Assembly: GCF_004571065.1 (NCBI RefSeq) | Contig: NZ_SPQN01000006.1 | Coordinates: forward strand, 1-64,000 | Direction: 5' to 3' | Origin: Geodermatophilus sp. DF01-2 | GTDB taxonomy: Bacteria > Actinomycetota > Actinomycetes > Mycobacteriales > Geodermatophilaceae | DNA length: 64,000 nt | In this document: one piece after another, positions 25,745 to 35,696 of the stretch | Numbering within the stretch: position 1 is the first letter of the stretch | Layout of the letters: every line of letters begins with the position of its first letter | Translations under genes and position numbers: made by a program | Notes under the pieces: generated by a model | What the model was told of the DNA's origin: nothing | Seen by the model: only the letters and a program-made list of their open reading frames with translations | The model's database searches: none

Positions 25745-27097
25745 TCAGGTCTGCAGCGGCTCCCAACGGCCGGCCAGTGCCCGCTCGACGGCCTCGGCCA
25801 GCCGCCGCACGTCCTGCTCGGTGCGCCCGGCGGGGAGCTCCTCGAGGGACTGGGCGGTCAGCGCCGCGCAGTGCTTCAGCACGGCCTGCCGCTGCCGCTC
25901 CGTGCGCGCCTGCCAGCCGGCCTCGGCGAGCACGGCGAACAGCCGCTCGACGATGGTGGTGTCCTGCCGGCCGTAGCTGCGGATCTGGGTGACCGAGAGG
26001 TCCAGCAGCGCGGCGTGGTCCCACGACGGCAGGAGCAGCCGGTGGACGCCGTCGTCGGCGGCCACCCGCCGGTGCCAGGTCTCCCGGCTGCTCAGCCGCC
26101 CCATGAGCGCCGAGATGTGCGAGAGGGCGTGGACGGCGGTCGTCGGGTCGTTGATGCCCGGGGAGAGCGCGCGGGCGGCGATGTCGACCAGTTTGCGCAG
26201 CCCGTAGCTGGGGTCGGCCGCCGGCGACCGCTCGAAGGAGAGCGCCACGTGCCGCTGCAGCGCGGCCTCCAGATCCCCGACGGGCGGTTCGACGGTCCCG
26301 CCGTCGCTCCACACCCAGGCCAGCGGCGTGCCCTCGACCACCGACTCGCCCGGACGGCGGTCCAGGCGCAGCACCGCCCCGCACCCGGACAGCGCCTCCA
26401 GCAGCGGACCCTCGTCGGTCCGCACCAGGAAGCCACTGGCGCGGGCACACAGCGGCCGGGCGTGCGCGGGCACGGCCGACAGCGGCCCGTCGGGCTGCTC
26501 GTCGGCCTGCAGCTGGGTCGCCAGCCGCTCGATGGTGTCGGTGGACTCGGCATGGACCTGACGCATCATCGTCTCGACGCGCAGCTGCCGGGTCTGGTGG
26601 GCGAGGAACGTCACCAGCGCCGCGACCGAGGCGAGGGCGAACAGGAACCCGACGGTCACCGACAGGCGGGGGACGAACGCCGACTCGCCCGACTCGTCCG
26701 CCGACCGCACGCTGCGCAGCACCACCAGCGCGTACACGAACGTGGCCAGCAGCACGCCGAGGCAGACCTGCACGACGCGGTCGCGGACGAAGGTCTGCAG
26801 CAGCCGGGGGCTGTACTGGCTGCTGGCCAGCTGCAGCGTCACGATCGTGAGCGAGAACAGCAGCGTGGTGACCGAGATGATCGACCCGGCGATCGTCGAG
26901 AGGATGCCGCGGGCGGCCGACGGCCCGCCCTCGAACACCAGGGCCAGCGGCTCCTCCCCGGTGTTGAGGATCTCGTCGAAGATCGGCAGCACGAGCCCCA
27001 GGGCGAACGCGAGCACGATGAGCGCGGTCGGCAGCGGCCAGAGCGCGCCCGTGAAGGAATCGCGGAGCCTCGACCAGGCACCGCCCCGCGGTGTCAC
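25745..27097 (-). CDS. DUF2254 membrane protein
   Basis: A 450-residue actinobacterial membrane protein of unknown function. Four transmembrane helices fill residues 15-165 (PTALIVLAFALGLVLPIF first). The family signature SSQYSPRLLQTFVRDR is followed by a large soluble region including ARALSPGINDPTTAVHAL, a very conserved DUF2254 block. GTG start overlaps the stop of the second DUF1206 gene (GTGA at 27094-27097), so all three genes form one transcription unit. Confidence 0.85.
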   Translation of the reverse strand: MTPRGGAWSRLRDSFTGALWPLPTALIVLAFALGLVLPIFDEILNTGEEPLALVFEGGPSAARGILSTIAGSIISVTTLLFSLTIVTLQLASSQYSPRLLQTFVRDRVVQVCLGVLLATFVYALVVLRSVRSADESGESAFVPRLSVTVGFLFALASVAALVTFLAHQTRQLRVETMMRQVHAESTDTIERLATQLQADEQPDGPLSAVPAHARPLCARASGFLVRTDEGPLLEALSGCGAVLRLDRRPGESVVEGTPLAWVWSDGGTVEPPVGDLEAALQRHVALSFERSPAADPSYGLRKLVDIAARALSPGINDPTTAVHALSHISALMGRLSSRETWHRRVAADDGVHRLLLPSWDHAALLDLSVTQIRSYGRQDTTIVERLFAVLAEAGWQARTERQRQAVLKHCAALTAQSLEELPAGRTEQDVRRLAEAVERALAGRWEPLQT

Positions 27098-27960
27098 GAC
27101 GACGGGTCCCGGTCGGGGTAGCGGGCGCGGGCCAGCGCGTACACGCCGAACGCGGCGAACCCGGCGGCTACCGCGCCCAGCAGCCAGGGCCCCGCGCTGA
27201 CCGAGGCGATCGCGGTCAGCGCGCCGTCCAGGCCGGTGGCGGTGGAGACGTCGGCGGTCGTGGCCGCCCGCCACAGCAGCACCCCGACCAGGCCGAACGC
27301 TATGCCCTTGGCCATGTACCCGACGCGCCCCAGGGCCTCGATCAGCGGCTCCCAGCGGTCGGGAGCCGCGGGCAGGTCGATGTCCTTCATGAAGCCTCCG
27401 GTCAATCCGCGGACCAAGGTGTAGACACCTACGGCGACCACGCCGACCGCCACGGTGAGGACCAGCGCGGCCCCGCCGGGGATGCCCAGCGTCTCGCCGG
27501 TGAGCTCGCGCAACCGCTCGTCGGCCTCGTACTCCAGACCGAAGGCGAACAGCAGTCCGGTGAACCCGAGAACGGCGTAGACGGCGGCCTTGGCCAGGCA
27601 CCTCGCGCAGACGAACGCCGTCCGCCAGCGGTGCTGCGGGTCGAGGAGCCCGTGCCACCACAGCAGCACCTCGCCGGCCTGCCACAGCGCCAGGGAGAAC
27701 AGGCCTACGCCGATCAGCCAGAGCAGCGCCGTCCCGCCGGGGGTGGCGGCGACCGTCTGCAGGGCGCCCGTCTGGTCGGCGTCGGTGTGGGTGCTGCCCA
27801 GGGCCAGCTGCACCGCCAGCCAGCCGATGAGCAGGTGCAGGACGCCGTAGGCGACCAGGCCCACGCGGGCGACCGCCTCGAGCACCGGGTGGTCGGTGAC
27901 CTCGCGGGCGTGCTCGACCAACCGGTGGACGCGGTCGAGCAGCGGGCGGGCGGTCGGCAC
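27094..27960 (-). CDS. DUF1206 membrane protein, second tandem copy
   Basis: A 288-residue membrane protein built from three DUF1206 repeats of two helices each. Each unit starts with a variant of ARVGLVAYGVLHLLIGWLA: residues about 33, then the middle unit CLAKAAVYAVLGFTGLLF, then LGRVGYMAKGIAFGLVGVLL. Function unknown. A GTG start was chosen; it lacks a strong ribosome site and lies 23 bases after the upstream paralog's stop. Sits between its paralog and DUF2254 in one operon. Confidence 0.82.
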   Translation of the reverse strand: MPTARPLLDRVHRLVEHAREVTDHPVLEAVARVGLVAYGVLHLLIGWLAVQLALGSTHTDADQTGALQTVAATPGGTALLWLIGVGLFSLALWQAGEVLLWWHGLLDPQHRWRTAFVCARCLAKAAVYAVLGFTGLLFAFGLEYEADERLRELTGETLGIPGGAALVLTVAVGVVAVGVYTLVRGLTGGFMKDIDLPAAPDRWEPLIEALGRVGYMAKGIAFGLVGVLLWRAATTADVSTATGLDGALTAIASVSAGPWLLGAVAAGFAAFGVYALARARYPDRDPSS

Positions 27961-27983
27961 CGGACGATCGTGCGGGACGGAGC

Positions 27984-28835
27984 TCAGGTCCGCTCGGGGT
28001 AGCGGGCCCGGACCAGGCAGAAGGCGCCGAACGCGGCGATGCCGATGGCGACGACGGTGAGCAGCACCTGGCCGAAGGGCACGGCCAGGAGACTGCGCAG
28101 GGCGCCGTCCAGGCCGCTGGCCGCGGCCGGGTCGACGGTGACCGCCGCCCACACCAGCAGCACCCCCACCAGGCCGAACGCGACCCCCTTGGCTGGGTAG
28201 CCGGCCTGCCCGAGGCGGGTGACCAGGCGGGTGGCCTCCGGCGGGGCCTCGCGGAGGTCGATCTCCTCGAGGAACCGCTTGGCGACGCCCTTGTGCACCA
28301 GGTACACGCCGATGCCGACGATGGCCAGACCGATCAACCCCACCAGCCACCGCCCGGCGGGCCAGCCGAAGATGCCGGCGGCGGCCTGCTGCTGCTGGCC
28401 ACCGGACTGCCCCCCGCCGGTGGCGTACCGGACCGCCAGCGCCGCGAGCACCGCGTAGACGACGGCCTTGGCCACCGACTTGACGACCGTGACGACCGCC
28501 TTCTTCCGCGCGTCCCCGGACGCGGACAGGCCGCTGCGCCAGCGCAGCACCTCGGCCGCCTGCCACACGGCCAGCGCGACCATCCCGGCCGCGACCACCC
28601 ACAGGAGCACCGCTCCGAACGGCTGCTGGGCCAGGGTGGCGAGCGCGCCGCCCTGGTCGGCCTGCGGCGCACTGCCGCCGACGCCCCAGGCCAGCTGGAC
28701 GGCCAGCCAGGTGATCAGCAGGTGCACCACGCCGTAGGCCACCAGGCCGACCCGGGCCAGGTGCTCCAGGGTGTCGCTGTCACCCGCCCGGCCCGCGGCT
28801 CCCGCGGCCTGACCGATCGTCCCGCGCCCGCCCAT
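27984..28835 (-). CDS. DUF1206 membrane protein, first tandem copy
   Basis: A 283-residue paralog of the following gene with the same three-unit layout (LARVGLVAYGVVHLLITWLA, VAKAVVYAVLAALAV, LGQAGYPAKGVAFGLVGVLL). The C-terminal ends of both paralogs are near-identical in pattern (ARYPER/ARYPDR), consistent with tandem duplication. A Gln/Gly-rich loop (GGGQSGGQQQQ) lies between units two and three. ATG preceded by GGAGGAGCG. First gene of the operon. Confidence 0.85.
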   Translation of the reverse strand: MGGRGTIGQAAGAAGRAGDSDTLEHLARVGLVAYGVVHLLITWLAVQLAWGVGGSAPQADQGGALATLAQQPFGAVLLWVVAAGMVALAVWQAAEVLRWRSGLSASGDARKKAVVTVVKSVAKAVVYAVLAALAVRYATGGGQSGGQQQQAAAGIFGWPAGRWLVGLIGLAIVGIGVYLVHKGVAKRFLEEIDLREAPPEATRLVTRLGQAGYPAKGVAFGLVGVLLVWAAVTVDPAAASGLDGALRSLLAVPFGQVLLTVVAIGIAAFGAFCLVRARYPERT

Positions 28836-29223: not shown

Positions 29224-29847
29224 GTGGCGAGTGGTGCAGCGGCGGCGGCGGTGGAGCGGACGAGCCCGGAGCAGGCCCGCCGGGCCTGGCCCCGGTGGCT
29301 GGCCGGCGGCGTCGCGCTGCTGGTCGTCGCCGTGGTCGCGGTGTTCTGGGAGGCCGGCGGCGCCCGGCTGCTGCTCGGCGTGGCCGGTGTGCTGACCGCG
29401 GGGCGCGGCGCGGTGCTGGCCGCCTCCGGTCGCGGCCGGGTCGCGGGTGTCGCGGCGCTCGTCGTCGGTGCGGTCGCGGTCGCGGTCGCGCTGGGGCCCG
29501 CGGGCGCCGCGAGCCGGGTGCTGCTGGTGGCCGTGCCGGCCGGGCTGCTCGTCGGGGCGCTGGCGCTCCTCGGCCGCGGCGGGGCGGTGCGCCGCAGCGG
29601 CCAGGCCGCACTGGTCTGGTGGACGCTGGTCACCGGCCTGCTGGCCACGACCGGCCTGGTCGCCGGCTGGGACCGCGCCGCCGACGGCGCCACGGTCGTC
29701 GGAGCCCTCGGCCTCGGCCTGCTCGGTGTCGTCCTGCTCGTCGGATCCGCCAGCCTGCGCGCCATCGCCACCCGGCCCGCCCCGGCCCGCCCGGCGGCCT
29801 GTGCCGGCTGTGCGTGCGGCGCCGGCGGCTGCGGCGTGCCGCGCTGA
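29224..29847 (+). CDS. Membrane protein with Cys-rich C-terminal tail
   Basis: A 207-residue protein with about six hydrophobic helices and no recognised family. The helices are nearly pure Ala/Val/Leu/Gly (WLAGGVALLVVAVVAVFW, GVAALVVGAVAVAVALG). The tail after the last helix is CAGCACGAGGCGVPR, with Cys in a C-x2-C-x-C-x4-C arrangement that could bind metal or form disulfides. GTG start chosen just before the first charged segment. It precedes the macro-SIR2 gene by 65 bases on the same strand. Confidence 0.6.
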   Translation: MASGAAAAAVERTSPEQARRAWPRWLAGGVALLVVAVVAVFWEAGGARLLLGVAGVLTAGRGAVLAASGRGRVAGVAALVVGAVAVAVALGPAGAASRVLLVAVPAGLLVGALALLGRGGAVRRSGQAALVWWTLVTGLLATTGLVAGWDRAADGATVVGALGLGLLGVVLLVGSASLRAIATRPAPARPAACAGCACGAGGCGVPR

Positions 29848-29911
29848 GCCCCGGCCGCCGCGGATAGCGGCCGATCCCGTACCGGTTCGCCGCCGACCGG
29901 ACGGGGCACCC

Positions 29912-29931
29912 CGTGTCCGTGAGCGGACACG
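29912..29931 (+). promoter_or_regulatory. Perfect 8-bp inverted repeat over the SIR2 gene start
   Basis: CGTGTCCG and CGGACACG (29912-29919, 29924-29931) with a 4-base loop span the start codon of the macro-SIR2 gene. In RNA this would hide the start in a hairpin; in DNA it could be an operator. Alternative GTG codons at 29919 and 29931 also fall in it. Confidence 0.5.
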
Positions 29932-31550
29932 TGTTCGTCGTCGGGGCCGACCTCCGGCGGCTGGTCTGCGACGACGTCCTGGTGCCCACCGACCGGTCCC
30001 TGCGCGTCACCCCCGGATGGCGCCGGCTGCTGCCGGACGACCTCGTGGCCAGCGAGGACTCCCACGGCCTCTGCCTGGACCTGGTCTGGCGCGACAGCGA
30101 GCGGGTGCTCGAGGTGTCCGGCGGGCGGGCGGACGGCCGGGCGCAGCAGCGGCTGTGGCTGGTCGACACCGTCGACGACGGGGAGGGCGACCCCGACGAC
30201 GCGCTGCGCTGGATCGTCGACGGGGCGCGCGAGGCGCTCGCCGCCGTCGCGCGGCAGGAGGTTTCCGCGCCCGTGCACGGGCGGGCCCGCCGGCTGGTCG
30301 CGCTGCCGGCCCTCGGCACCGGCTGGGGCGGGGCCGCCGGGCTGCGCGGGACGCTGCTGCAGCAGCTGCTGCCCGTGCTGCGCGAGTGCGCGGCCGCGCA
30401 CGGCCTCGACGTCGCGCTCGTGCTGCGCGGGCCGAGCGACCTGGCCGCGGCGCAGCGGGTGCGCCGGGCCGAGCCGGACAGCTGGGACCTGCCCGGGCAC
30501 CTGCGGGAGCTCGCCGAGGATCTCGGCGAGCGGGCCCGCCGCGGGCAGCTGGCCGCGTTCGTCGGCGCCGGGGTGAGCGCCGCCGCCGGGCTGCCCACCT
30601 GGGAGCAGTTGCTCGACGAGCTGGCCGAGCGGGCCGGACTGGACGAGGCGCTGCGCACGGGGCTGTCCCGGCTGCCGGCCCAGGACGCCGCCGCCCTGCT
30701 GGCCCGCGAGCTCGGCCGCGAGGAGGTGGAGGGCTTCGTCGGGGAGCGGTTCGGGCCGGGGCAGTACGCGCTGGCGCACGCGCTGATCGCCGACCTGCCG
30801 GTGCAGGAGTTCGTCACCACCAACTACGACCCGCTGGTCGAGCTCGTCGCCGCCGACATCGGCCGCGACCTGTCGGTGCTCCCGTTCGACGACGCGGAGC
30901 CGGGCCGGCCGTGGCTGCTCAAGCTGCACGGGGACGCCGCCCATCCGGCGAGCGTCGTGCTGACCCGCGAGGAGTACCTGCAGCTCGGCGACTCCCGCGC
31001 GGCGCTGGCCGGGGTGCTGCACTCCCTGCTGCTCACCCGGCACGTCCTCTTCGTCGGCACCTCGCTGCAGGACGACGACCTGATCCGCATCGCCCACCAG
31101 GTGCGCAGCGCGATCCAGGCCCCGGGCGCGGCGTCGCGCCGGCGCAGCGGCACCGTCCTGGCGCTGCGGGAGGACCCGGCCCGCGCCCGGCTCTGGGAGC
31201 AGGACGTGCAGACGGTGGCGATGGCTCCGGCCGACACCCCGCCGGCCGAGGCGGCCCGCCTGCTGGAGGTGCTGCTCGACCTCATCGGGTGCCTGTCCAC
31301 CCCGCCGACCGGCTACCTGCTCGACCCGGCCTACTCCGGGATGCTCGACGAGGAGGAGCGGGCGCTGGCCGGGGCGCTGCAGCAGGTGGAGCGCGCCGTG
31401 CCCGGAGGGGCGACGGCGTCGGCGACCGGCGAGGTGGCCGCGCTGCTGCGCCGGCTGGGCTCGCAGGGTCGCGCGACGCGCGAGCGGACGCCGGCGGACC
31501 AGGCCAGCACGCCGAACGACGACCGCCTGCAGCAGCAACGCCCCGGGTGA
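29913..31550 (+). CDS. Macro-like domain fused to SIR2-like domain
   Basis: A 545-residue protein. Residues 205-435 form a SIR2-like domain of the SIR2_2 type: GAGVSAAAGLPTW near 218, VTTNYD near 301-306 with the conserved Asn, KLHGD with the probable catalytic His339, and VGTSLQDDD. Such domains are NAD+ hydrolases in anti-phage systems or protein deacylases. Residues 1-185 resemble a macro (ADP-ribose-binding) fold: GADLRRLVCDDVLVPTD at the N-terminus and LPALGTGWGG near 131, the usual glycine-rich loop. No zinc-finger cysteines as in classic sirtuins. The combination suggests NAD+/ADP-ribose sensing and consumption, possibly in immunity or stress; that function is inference. Followed directly by a dispersed repeat. 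Confidence 0.72.
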   Translation: MSVSGHVFVVGADLRRLVCDDVLVPTDRSLRVTPGWRRLLPDDLVASEDSHGLCLDLVWRDSERVLEVSGGRADGRAQQRLWLVDTVDDGEGDPDDALRWIVDGAREALAAVARQEVSAPVHGRARRLVALPALGTGWGGAAGLRGTLLQQLLPVLRECAAAHGLDVALVLRGPSDLAAAQRVRRAEPDSWDLPGHLRELAEDLGERARRGQLAAFVGAGVSAAAGLPTWEQLLDELAERAGLDEALRTGLSRLPAQDAAALLARELGREEVEGFVGERFGPGQYALAHALIADLPVQEFVTTNYDPLVELVAADIGRDLSVLPFDDAEPGRPWLLKLHGDAAHPASVVLTREEYLQLGDSRAALAGVLHSLLLTRHVLFVGTSLQDDDLIRIAHQVRSAIQAPGAASRRRSGTVLALREDPARARLWEQDVQTVAMAPADTPPAEAARLLEVLLDLIGCLSTPPTGYLLDPAYSGMLDEEERALAGALQQVERAVPGGATASATGEVAALLRRLGSQGRATRERTPADQASTPNDDRLQQQRPG

Positions 31551-31697
31551 GAGAGGACTACCCTTCCCCCCACGCCCGGCCCCCTCCAGGGGCACCGCCG
31601 CGAGCGTGCGAGCGGTGGGAGGAGGGGGTCCTTCTGCTGGAAGGCGGCCGTTCCAGTACGTCACCAGGCCCGCGGCGGGACCCTGCAGAGGGGCCGC
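31551..31697 (-). repeat. Dispersed inverted-repeat element, copy 6
   Basis: Read on the minus strand the segment at about 31573-31634 gives AAGGACCCCCTCCTCCC, loop CGCTCGCACGCTCG, and TGGAGGGGGCC. Further degenerate halves lie on both sides. It starts right after the stop of the macro-SIR2 gene and fills most of the gap before the P450. Confidence 0.65.
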
Positions 31698-31752
31698 CGT
31701 CTCACGTGAGCCGGTGGTGTGCGGAGCTGGTGGCCTGGGCACCGGTCCCCTC

Positions 31753-33386: not shown

Positions 33387-35696
33387 TCAGGACAGGCGGG
33401 CGAGCTCCGCGGGCAGCGCGCCGGGGGAGAGGACGCCGAGCCGCTGGGTGGCCCGGGTGAGCGCGACGTAGAGGTCGTTGTGCCCGCGCACCCCCTCGTC
33501 GAGGACCCGCCGCGGATCGACGACGAGCACCGCGTCGAACTCCAGCCCCTTGGCCTCGGCCGGGGCGAGGACCACCGGGCCCAGGGAGGAGTCGGCGTCG
33601 GGGCCGGACGAGACGCCGCCCAGCTGCGAGGAGACCGCGGCCGCGAGCTCGGCGACCCGGCTGGCCGGCGCGACCACGGCGGTGGTGCCCTCCTCCACCG
33701 CCCACTCCGCGGTGACCTCGGCGACCCGGTCGGCCAGCCGGGCCTCGCCGGTCACCTCCGCCCACGGCGCGGCGGTGCCCGGCCGGACCGAGCGGGGCGC
33801 GCCGGCCCCGGTGCCGCCCGCGGCGAGGACGTCGGCGGCGACGGCCATGATCTCGGCCGGCGTCCGGTAGTTGACGGTGAGCTCCTCGAGCCGCCACGCG
33901 TCGCCGACGTGCGGGCGCAGCGTCTCGTCCCAGGCGGCGGCACCGGCCAGGGTGCCGGTCTGCGCGAGGTCGCCGACCGCGGTCATCGACCGGGTGGGGC
34001 AGCGGCGCACCAGCAGCCGCCAGGCCATGGGGGAGAGCTCCTGGGCCTCGTCGACGACGACGTGGCCGAAGGTCCAGGTGCGGTCGGCGGCGGCCCGCTC
34101 GGCGGTGCTGCGGGTGTCGACCGCCCGCTGCCGGTCGGCCAGCTCCTCGGCGCTGATCAGGTCGCCCGCGCTCAGGACCTCGGCCTCCAGGTGCTCGTCC
34201 TCGAGGTCGATGGAGCGCGAGCCGTGCAGCACGTCGAGGGTCTCCTGGGCCTCGGCCAGCCGCCGGCGGCGGTCCCGCTCGGCGCGGGCCCGCTGCGCGC
34301 TGTCGTCGAAGCCGAGCAGCTCCTCGGCCTCCTCCAGCAGCGGGACGTCGGCCGGCGTCCACTGCTCCGAGGACATGGCCGACCCCCGCGGACGGTGCAG
34401 CAGCGCGCGGTCGGCGTCGTCCCACCCGGGGGTGGCGGCGGCGATCCGGGCGGGGTCGGCGAACAGGTCGGTGAGCAGCCGCTCGGGGGTCAGCACCGGC
34501 CACAGGTCGTCGACCAGCAGCCGGACGGCGGGCTCCTCGGCGACCTCGCGGCGCAGCGCGGCGACGTCCTCCCGGTCGAGGAGGTCGGCCGCGTCGATGC
34601 CGGTGCCGATGCGTTCGGCGTAGCGCCGGGTCAGCAGGTCGACGACGCGGCGGGCGAACACCGGTCGGGCCAGGTTGTGCAGCCGCTCGGCCCTGCGCGC
34701 GGCGGCCTGCGCGCGCCGCACGTCGACCGGCCGCAGCCGCAGGGCGAAGCCGTCGACGGTCACCTCGCGTGGCGCGTCGGGCACGACCTGCCGGCCGGCG
34801 ACGGCGCGCTCGAGCACCTCGACCATCTCCAGCCGGCCCTTGACCCCGGCGGCCTCCGGCGACTCGACCCCGCGGGCGTCGAGGCCCGGCCGCAGCTGGC
34901 CCAGGCCGGCCAGCAGCACGCCGGTCTCGCCGAGCGAGGGCAGCACGTCGGCGATGTAGCGCAGGAACGTCGGGGTGGGGCCGACGACGAGCAGGCCGCG
35001 GCGGGCCAGCCGCTCGCGGTGGGTGTAGAGCAGGTAGGCCGCGCGGTGCAGCGCGACGGCCGTCTTGCCGGTGCCCGGCCCGCCCTGGACGACGAGGACG
35101 CCGCGGTCGTCGGCGCGGATGATGCGGTCCTGCTCGGCCTGGATGGTGCGGACGATGTCGGTCATCCGGCCGGTGCGGGCGGTGTCGAGGGCGGCCATGA
35201 GCGCGGCCTCGCCGGTGAGGCCGGACCCGGCGACCCCGTCGGTCAGCACCTCGTCGTCCAGCCGGACGACGGTGCGCCCACGGGTGCGGATGTGCCGGCG
35301 GCGCGCCACGCCCAGCGGGTGCACCGGGGTGGCGGTGTAGAAGGGACGCGCGGCCGGCGCGCGCCAGTCGACCAGGGCGGGGTCGCCACCGGCGTCGTCG
35401 GCGGCCAGCCCGATCCGGCCGATGTAGAGCGGGCCGTCGCCGGTGCGGTCGATGCGGCCGACGCAGAGGCCCGCCTCGGCGGCGTCCAGGGCGGTGACCC
35501 GCTCGGTCTGGAACCGAACCGTGGCGTCGCGCTCCTGCAGGGCTTGCGGGTCGACGGCGGGCCACGCGATGGCCTGCCGCAACCGCTGCTCGGCCAGGTC
35601 GCGGGCGGCGTCGAGCCGGCCGTAGAGCTCCTTGACGTACTGCTGCTCGGCGTCGATCTCGGGGTGGGGTACGGCATCGTGCTGCGTCGTCGACAC
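33387..35696 (-). CDS. HelD/HelR-like RNA polymerase-associated ATPase
   Basis: A 769-residue superfamily I helicase-like ATPase. The N-terminal 190 residues begin with a coiled EQQYVKELYGRLDAARDLAEQ segment typical of HelD, then Walker A QGGPGTGKTAVALHR near 205, DEAQELSPMAWRLL (motif II) near 555, GDLAQTGT (motif III), VNYRTPAEIM and the C-terminal ALTRATQRLGVL (motif VI). HelD proteins pull stalled or drug-bound RNA polymerase off DNA; actinobacterial HelR versions confer rifamycin tolerance. GTG start with a GGAGGAAGAG ribosome site. An unusual nested inverted repeat lies about 140 bases upstream. Confidence 0.88.
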   Translation of the reverse strand: MSTTQHDAVPHPEIDAEQQYVKELYGRLDAARDLAEQRLRQAIAWPAVDPQALQERDATVRFQTERVTALDAAEAGLCVGRIDRTGDGPLYIGRIGLAADDAGGDPALVDWRAPAARPFYTATPVHPLGVARRRHIRTRGRTVVRLDDEVLTDGVAGSGLTGEAALMAALDTARTGRMTDIVRTIQAEQDRIIRADDRGVLVVQGGPGTGKTAVALHRAAYLLYTHRERLARRGLLVVGPTPTFLRYIADVLPSLGETGVLLAGLGQLRPGLDARGVESPEAAGVKGRLEMVEVLERAVAGRQVVPDAPREVTVDGFALRLRPVDVRRAQAAARRAERLHNLARPVFARRVVDLLTRRYAERIGTGIDAADLLDREDVAALRREVAEEPAVRLLVDDLWPVLTPERLLTDLFADPARIAAATPGWDDADRALLHRPRGSAMSSEQWTPADVPLLEEAEELLGFDDSAQRARAERDRRRRLAEAQETLDVLHGSRSIDLEDEHLEAEVLSAGDLISAEELADRQRAVDTRSTAERAAADRTWTFGHVVVDEAQELSPMAWRLLVRRCPTRSMTAVGDLAQTGTLAGAAAWDETLRPHVGDAWRLEELTVNYRTPAEIMAVAADVLAAGGTGAGAPRSVRPGTAAPWAEVTGEARLADRVAEVTAEWAVEEGTTAVVAPASRVAELAAAVSSQLGGVSSGPDADSSLGPVVLAPAEAKGLEFDAVLVVDPRRVLDEGVRGHNDLYVALTRATQRLGVLSPGALPAELARLS

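Follow-up and report, generated by a model that had tools for sequence, protein, structure and literature searches.

A macro domain fused in front of a SIR2 domain at a fixed chromosomal slot in Geodermatophilaceae, a candidate ADP-ribose-gated NADase

ThsA and DSR2 both hydrolyse NAD+ through their SIR2 domains. In Thoeris, ThsA couples its SIR2 domain to a SLOG domain (SIR2–SLOG), which serves as a nucleotide sensor, and the gene for the TIR protein ThsB adjoins. DSR1 and DSR2 are proteins of ~1000–1250 aa with a large C-terminal sensor, and the KomC chain of KomBC is a 264-residue SIR2. A macro domain takes the sensing position in TM-macro ThsA, whose effector is a transmembrane segment; according to the excerpted text of PMC11204291, this macro domain binds ADPR and, on the substrates named there (OAADPr and alpha-NAD+), showed no deacetylase or glycohydrolase activity. 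Sirtuins and macro domains are also known as two-gene SirTM–macro systems, in which an ADP-ribosylating sirtuin and a macro protein are encoded separately and work together (PMC9503650, as excerpted). The same source, in its section 3.8, predicts that ARG-centric loci counter viral ADP-ribosylation; it sought these loci as lacking coupled sirtuins or ARTs and names Macro and NADAR as occasional companions (PMC9503650).

The protein considered here has its macro and SIR2 domains in one chain. The initial annotation knew of no described system with this order, and we found no description of a macro–SIR2 fusion in the open-licence full texts searched; an earlier account elsewhere is possible. We file the protein as an addition to the nucleotide-sensing SIR2 effectors, a kind already known.

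The macro–SIR2 gene lies at 29913–31550 on the forward strand of a 64,000-nucleotide stretch of Geodermatophilus sp. DF01-2 (hereafter the window), where the reading frame runs uninterrupted for 545 aa from a GTG at 29913 to the stop codon at 31548–31550, which is included in the coordinates. An in-frame GTG at 29919 (543 aa) is the likelier start, because 13 of 15 other copies of the core Geodermatophilaceae group have M-x-GHVF as their N-terminus, as judged from starts picked by a custom ORF-calling script, which misplaced some of them. The sequence motifs first quoted in support of the fusion are all present, with GADLRRLVCDDVLVPTD at residues 11–27, LPALGTGWGG at 131–140, GAGVS at 218–222, TNYD at 303–306 and KLHGD at 337–341, the His of the last being H339. 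The joining of an N-terminal macro-like domain and a SIR2 domain in one polypeptide is real: of the 26 Geodermatophilus genomes sampled, 25 (its own included) have a full-length orthologue, the other 24 copies being 74–85% identical, which rules out both chance and a fault of assembly. Alignments of 23 and 76 rows also contain the fusion, and an assembly or ORF artefact is ruled out. The window genome, whose nearest named relatives include Geodermatophilus poikilotrophus, chilensis and pulveris, holds a single match to the protein.

The SIR2_2 domain spans residues 199–465 (30507–31307, forward strand). Pfam identifies SIR2_2 (PF13289) at residues 299–430 (E = 2.8e-28), the only sirtuin family of Pfam matched by the window protein, and the PADLOC profile for ThsA matches residues 199–402 (E = 6.3e-30), being aligned over its positions 8–213 of 478 only, i.e. 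over the SIR2 part. The closest solved proteins to this half by sequence are ThsA, KomC and DSR2, and a Foldseek search with the full-length AlphaFold2 model (pLDDT 86.4, pTM 0.90) returned BcThsA (E = 3.0e-15), KomC (TM-score 0.81 by target length) and DSR2. Among 76 aligned homologues, G218-A219-G220, N304 of TTNYD in the SIR2 active site (30822–30824, forward strand) and D306 are invariant, and the catalytic-type H339 of KLHGD (30927–30929, forward strand) is present in 75; this alignment leaves out three of the 66 rows of the named collection that are shorter than 470 aa (L104, L144 and L118) and the fragments L135 and L138. As judged from sequence and model, the SIR2 half has a SIR2_2, or defence-type SIR2, fold with the GAG motif and the active-site Asn and His, and is a predicted NADase, so that its original assignment to the phage-defence type holds by Pfam, PADLOC, PDB sequence and Foldseek matches alike. 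The one homologue without the His, L077 (9602–11155, directly beside an ARG gene), reads KINGD, with Asn replacing the catalytic residue, and may thus have lost or changed its activity.

ThsA is the best match of the SIR2 part in both sequence and fold, and the two proteins also share the pairing of a NADase-type SIR2 domain with a nucleotide-sensing domain, for which the macro domain is the candidate here. They differ in that this candidate sensor is N-terminal, reversing the order. No SLOG/STALD domain is found C-terminal to SIR2, where the ThsA profile stops at residue 402 and helices and a disordered tail follow. KomC shares the SIR2 fold, but macro–SIR2 adds the fused macro domain. The protein is not a member of the DSR1/DSR2 group, being far shorter and scoring 13.4 bits against the NCBIfam Dsr2 profile, which has a cut-off of 1400.

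The N-terminal macro domain covers residues 5–186 (29925–30470, forward strand). Neither the window protein nor any of 16 family members scanned has a macro match in Pfam, and a single-sequence PDB search with the N-terminal half gave no credible match. A profile built from 16 members found macroH2A1.1 in the PDB (E = 3.3e-7) together with the Thermus protein TTHA0132, a macro domain by fold (E = 0.011); a second profile of 23 rows again found macroH2A1.1 (E = 1.2e-6), with TTHA0132 at only E = 0.4. When residues 1–190 were modelled alone by AlphaFold2 (pLDDT 88.5, pTM 0.86), Foldseek placed macro domains on top, macroH2A being the best (E = 4.4e-6). VIA-align gave the O. iheyensis macrodomain as the best match (Z 16.7, rmsd 2.8, 167 aligned, model residues 3–190), followed by E. 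coli YmdB (Z 16.2), PARP9 macro 2 (16.1) and macroH2A (15.2). Membership in the macro-domain superfamily is confirmed by both whole-domain fold and profile homology, and the macro-like fold proposed from motifs in the initial annotation proved correct. Weak matches of residues 24–62 (E = 0.1–0.3) had pointed to kinship with CRISPR C2c1; they were gone in both profile searches and this candidate was rejected.

The fold alone cannot tell a reader from an eraser, because the nearest macro folds include hydrolases such as YmdB. We take DAIVNAAN to be the classical macro segment and the second Asn of NAAN to be the catalytic residue of MacroD-type hydrolases. The segment aligned to it reads D-x-V-L-V-P-T-D in the macro–SIR2 family, and this motif and the macroH2A alignment together place that second Asn at D27 (29991–29993, forward strand). 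Position 27 is Asp in 59, Gly in 13 and Ser in 4 of the 76 homologues, and the catalytic Asn is absent in all 76; no glycine-rich catalytic loop is visible after the NAAN-like segment in the family sequences. Other positions are strongly constrained: D20 is kept in 75 of 76 homologues, and G135, G139 and D166 in all. Because D20 is retained and position 27 is never Asn, the sequence argues that the domain is more likely a reader (binding) than an eraser (hydrolysis). A macro domain acting as the ADPR sensor of an effector has a precedent in TM-macro ThsA (PMC11204291, as excerpted). We propose the same sensor role here, with SIR2 rather than a transmembrane segment as the effector part.

The last ~80 residues of the full-length model consist of a few helices and a disordered tail. 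The motif DDRxQxQRPG (31518–31547, forward strand) stands at the very end of this divergent, predicted-disordered stretch (pLDDT ~30) and is kept in 40 of 47 core copies, with one NDR for DDR and one RAG for RPG among the 40; five of the seven copies in which it is missing are from Modestobacter. The tail codons vary synonymously, and their dN/dS of 0.17 is the lowest among the regions compared. From this pattern, a docking or targeting peptide is possible.

The gene occupies one chromosomal position in the family. On its left is a hydrophobic, by eye membrane-like protein (29251–29847, forward strand) without a Pfam match, and on its right a cytochrome P450 (31753–32988, forward strand; PF00067), both syntenic. 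Among 112 Geodermatophilaceae genomes, 67 match macro–SIR2 at E ≤ 1e-30 (63 with a core copy and four, of genus g4, with a distant copy only), 99 match the left-border gene (E ≤ 1e-5) and 79 match the P450 (E ≤ 1e-100). Both borders are on one contig in 73 genomes; macro–SIR2 is present in 56 of these, always between the two and on their strand. The slot (29848–31752 in the window) is without the gene in 17 genomes though both borders are kept. The spacing between the borders is then 46–113 bp in seven genomes, including the sole sampled Geodermatophilus without the gene (G018), 388–397 bp in four and 758–3084 bp in six, and these last six slots may hold other genes; in G261, other genes occupy the empty slot. 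These counts rest on 87 typed genomes of the 99 with a left-border match; the 12 left out, eight of genus g4 with no P450 match and four with fragments at contig ends (G329, G337, G356 and G357), would not enlarge the 73. They also exclude six core copies without a usable border and G335, whose borders are on different contigs. Two core copies, G169 and G265, are split by a frame change (L118 is probably the G265 copy), and G285 and six further core rows have one stop inside the aligned stretch.

Because the gene is in the slot in all 56 occupied genomes and the slot is empty with both borders kept in 17, macro–SIR2 forms a unit of its own at one address, passed on mostly with the chromosome and sometimes cleanly missing. 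An obligate operon partner in the slot was considered and ruled out: the membrane-like protein and the P450 remain when macro–SIR2 is absent, which upholds the earlier description of a stand-alone gene. At the end of the left-border protein is a conserved Cys/Gly-rich tail (CACGAGGCG-like), present at empty slots too. Further to the left, at 27094–28835, two DUF1206 genes lie side by side, apparently through tandem duplication, and are followed by a same-strand DUF2254 gene. In Modestobacter, an unclassified gene with no Pfam match lies directly upstream of macro–SIR2 (L106, 9321–10004; L117, 9257–9988), overlapping the macro–SIR2 start in L106, and is a possible lineage-specific partner.

Around the window copy, a scan of 10 genes turned up no clear defence neighbour. 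Nine of these had no PADLOC match at E ≤ 1e-5, and the tenth, a helicase at 33387–35696, gave weak UvrD-type matches only (best E = 9.8e-9). No ARG, NrtR/WYL or ARPP-1 gene was found among six window neighbours scanned with Pfam, and no TIR gene either among these six or, by PADLOC, among the 10, which sets the locus apart from Thoeris. Nor was an obligate signal-maker found: of the 26 genus genomes, 15 encode TIR_2 proteins (the window genome has one, on another contig) and five encode ARPP-1.

The dN/dS of macro–SIR2 is 0.32 (12 sequences) against 0.18–0.42 for eight neighbours (at most 12 genomes per gene), and another set of 15 sequences gives 0.38, with 0.24 for the SIR2 part and 0.42 for the macro part. 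Near-fixation together with neighbour-like dN/dS is unlike a fast-turning defence gene. Fourteen core-slot copies form one clade with support 100/100 in a tree of 40 hand-chosen rows, one of which (L079) bears the ADPr-locus label with no more than an HD_4 gene found in it. Mobile elements were searched for the full fusion. No record among 72,556 from plasmids covers 80% of the protein (36 partial matches, of which the 15 listed all fall within the SIR2 part) and none does among 50,697 from phages (one partial match). The sole viral-contig locus matches over 14 residues only, and BFVD holds no viral protein of macro–SIR2 architecture among the 50 matches listed.

A different picture emerges from distant relatives, of which 31 loci were compared (31–43% identity in the best segment; L085–L087, L135 and L138 left out). 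An ARG, NrtR-NUDIX or ARPP-1 gene lies within the fetched flanks in 11 of these 31 loci versus none of 48 named core-slot loci; ARG is present in 10 of the 11, NrtR-NUDIX in 10 and ARPP-1 in 8. The 11 loci represent ~10 genomes and fewer independent events, because one Klenkia locus appears twice, as L073 and as L151, and L074–L076 are close relatives, and a Fisher test of 11/31 against 0/48 overstates independence because the 48 core loci are one slot and hence one control. In a Pfam scan, ten representative neighbours included an ARG that carries a dual-specificity phosphatase domain, NrtR, ARPP-1, HD_4, a calcineurin-like phosphatase, a VWA below threshold and a NERD-UvrD protein, and a second set of ten included TY-Chap2 (L080) and a WYL-helicase protein (L153), five having no family. 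These loci resemble ARG-centric loci in their ARG, NrtR or ARPP-1 genes and, each in single loci scanned, in ARG-phosphatase, TY-Chap2, HD_4, calcineurin-like, weak VWA and WYL companions. The window locus, with none of the signature genes among its six scanned neighbours, and the core-slot loci do not share this likeness.

Defence genes were also found near some distant relatives. PADLOC identified DpdE (1053.7 bits) and a DruE-like protein in L083, HmaA (1086 bits) in L074, ZacB and ZacC in L141, HEC-05 in L153 and PDC-S37 in L143. The nine neighbours scanned, taken from five loci, were picked for a helicase- or DUF262-like look and give no measure of enrichment. By Pfam, L142 holds a type I methylase and L143 an AAA-REase protein. 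Several distant loci, among them L136, L137, L149, L152 and L154, have by eye metabolic or transport neighbours. Within Geodermatophilus, a second macro–SIR2 (~40% identical) occurs in G002, G004 and G010, all among the five ARPP-1 genomes, and ARPP-1 is by coordinates ≤5 kb from it in each. One Geodermatophilus paralogue (L080, 12910–14593) lies in a locus with TY-Chap2 and ARPP-1 and, by sequence reading, near QueD- and QueC-like genes (7-deazaguanine synthesis). Distant relatives probably serve in defence or anti-ADP-ribosylation loci, but the weight of this context is reduced because the evidence rests partly on hand-picked neighbours. The initial annotation looked to the neighbours of homologues for a link to immunity and held that a housekeeping context would count against one. 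Defence or ADP-ribose-processing genes do stand near some distant relatives, part of whose loci do not have a housekeeping context. The window clade does show a housekeeping context, with a single slot, ordinary selection and, in the scan of 10 neighbours, none that is clearly a defence gene.

We tentatively favour, at a little under even confidence, the reading that macro–SIR2 is an ADP-ribose-gated NADase with an order reversed relative to ThsA, domesticated in Geodermatophilaceae. The macro domain would bind ADP-ribose or a related ADP-ribosyl signal, and binding would release or oligomerise the SIR2 domain, which would then destroy NAD+. The protein would work much as ThsA does, with a nucleotide sensor and a SIR2 NADase, the sensor being swapped for a macro domain placed in front. 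At ARG-type loci, ADP-ribosylated macromolecules or their breakdown might be the source of the ligand. It is also possible that ADPR produced by the NADase itself feeds back positively, in which case a brake would be needed. The Geodermatophilaceae lineage would have settled in a fixed slot, where it is now kept mostly vertically, and its copy is probably a stress- or infection-triggered NAD-depletion switch. What computation establishes is the two folds, the conserved SIR2 residues, the absence of the hydrolase Asn, the slot and, for part of the relatives, the gene context; ligand binding, NADase activity, gating and any role against phage are inferred.

For the window copy, the serious rival is a domesticated housekeeping enzyme that tunes NAD+ or ADP-ribose levels, for instance following desiccation or radiation damage, and has lost its defence role. 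We consider this somewhat unlikely, although much of the genomic evidence accommodates it: a single slot in 56 of 56 resolvable genomes and presence in 25 of 26 genomes of the genus, dN/dS like that of its neighbours, one clade with 100/100 support and no clear defence neighbour among the 10 scanned. Yet the gene is absent from 17 genomes that keep both borders, one of them a Geodermatophilus, which together with the frame-split copies G169 and G265 suggests that it is dispensable, and its SIR2 domain belongs to the NADase effector type.

Two other alternatives concern the division of labour between the domains. The SIR2 domain might ADP-ribosylate a target or the protein itself and the macro domain remove or read the mark, a writer and an eraser in one chain comparable to the SirTM–macro operons. 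Sirtuin–macro two-gene systems are indeed known (PMC9503650, as excerpted), ARG and ARPP-1 genes at the relatives' loci point to ADP-ribosylated macromolecules, and YmdB-type hydrolases are among the nearest macro folds. The arrangement is nevertheless improbable, because none of the 76 homologues has the hydrolase Asn and the SIR2 domain belongs to the NADase type: SIR2_2 (PF13289) is the sole Pfam sirtuin family matched, and NADases are the nearest solved folds. Both points, like the single chain, distinguish the protein from the SirTM–macro systems, with their separate genes and ADP-ribosylating sirtuin. The macro fold might instead be a ligand-free scaffold on which SIR2 filaments or oligomers form, as the helical assemblies in the BcThsA and KomC structure entries would permit and as the lack of a visible glycine-rich catalytic loop after the NAAN-like segment might suggest. 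This we regard as quite improbable; the retention of D20 in 75 of 76 homologues and of G135, G139 and D166 in all 76 suggests a constrained pocket.

A broader form of the gated-NADase reading, which we consider unlikely but worth stating, concerns the family as a whole. Macro–SIR2 would be a macro-gated NADase that reads ADP-ribosylation and forms an abortive arm of ARG-centric loci, sensing ADP-ribose or the ADP-ribosylated products of invader ADP-ribosyltransferases and burning the NAD+ that those enzymes need; in Geodermatophilaceae it would have become a domesticated, nearly fixed one-gene switch with a new, conserved C-terminal docking tail. If these proposals are true, a macro-type sensor would join the SIR2 NADase effectors, the reading of ADP-ribose and the destruction of NAD+ would be physically linked in one chain, and a sirtuin would be tied to ARG-centric loci, which had been singled out as being without one. 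The occupied and empty slots of Geodermatophilaceae would then provide natural pairs in which to ask how a defence-type NADase nears fixation without killing its host.
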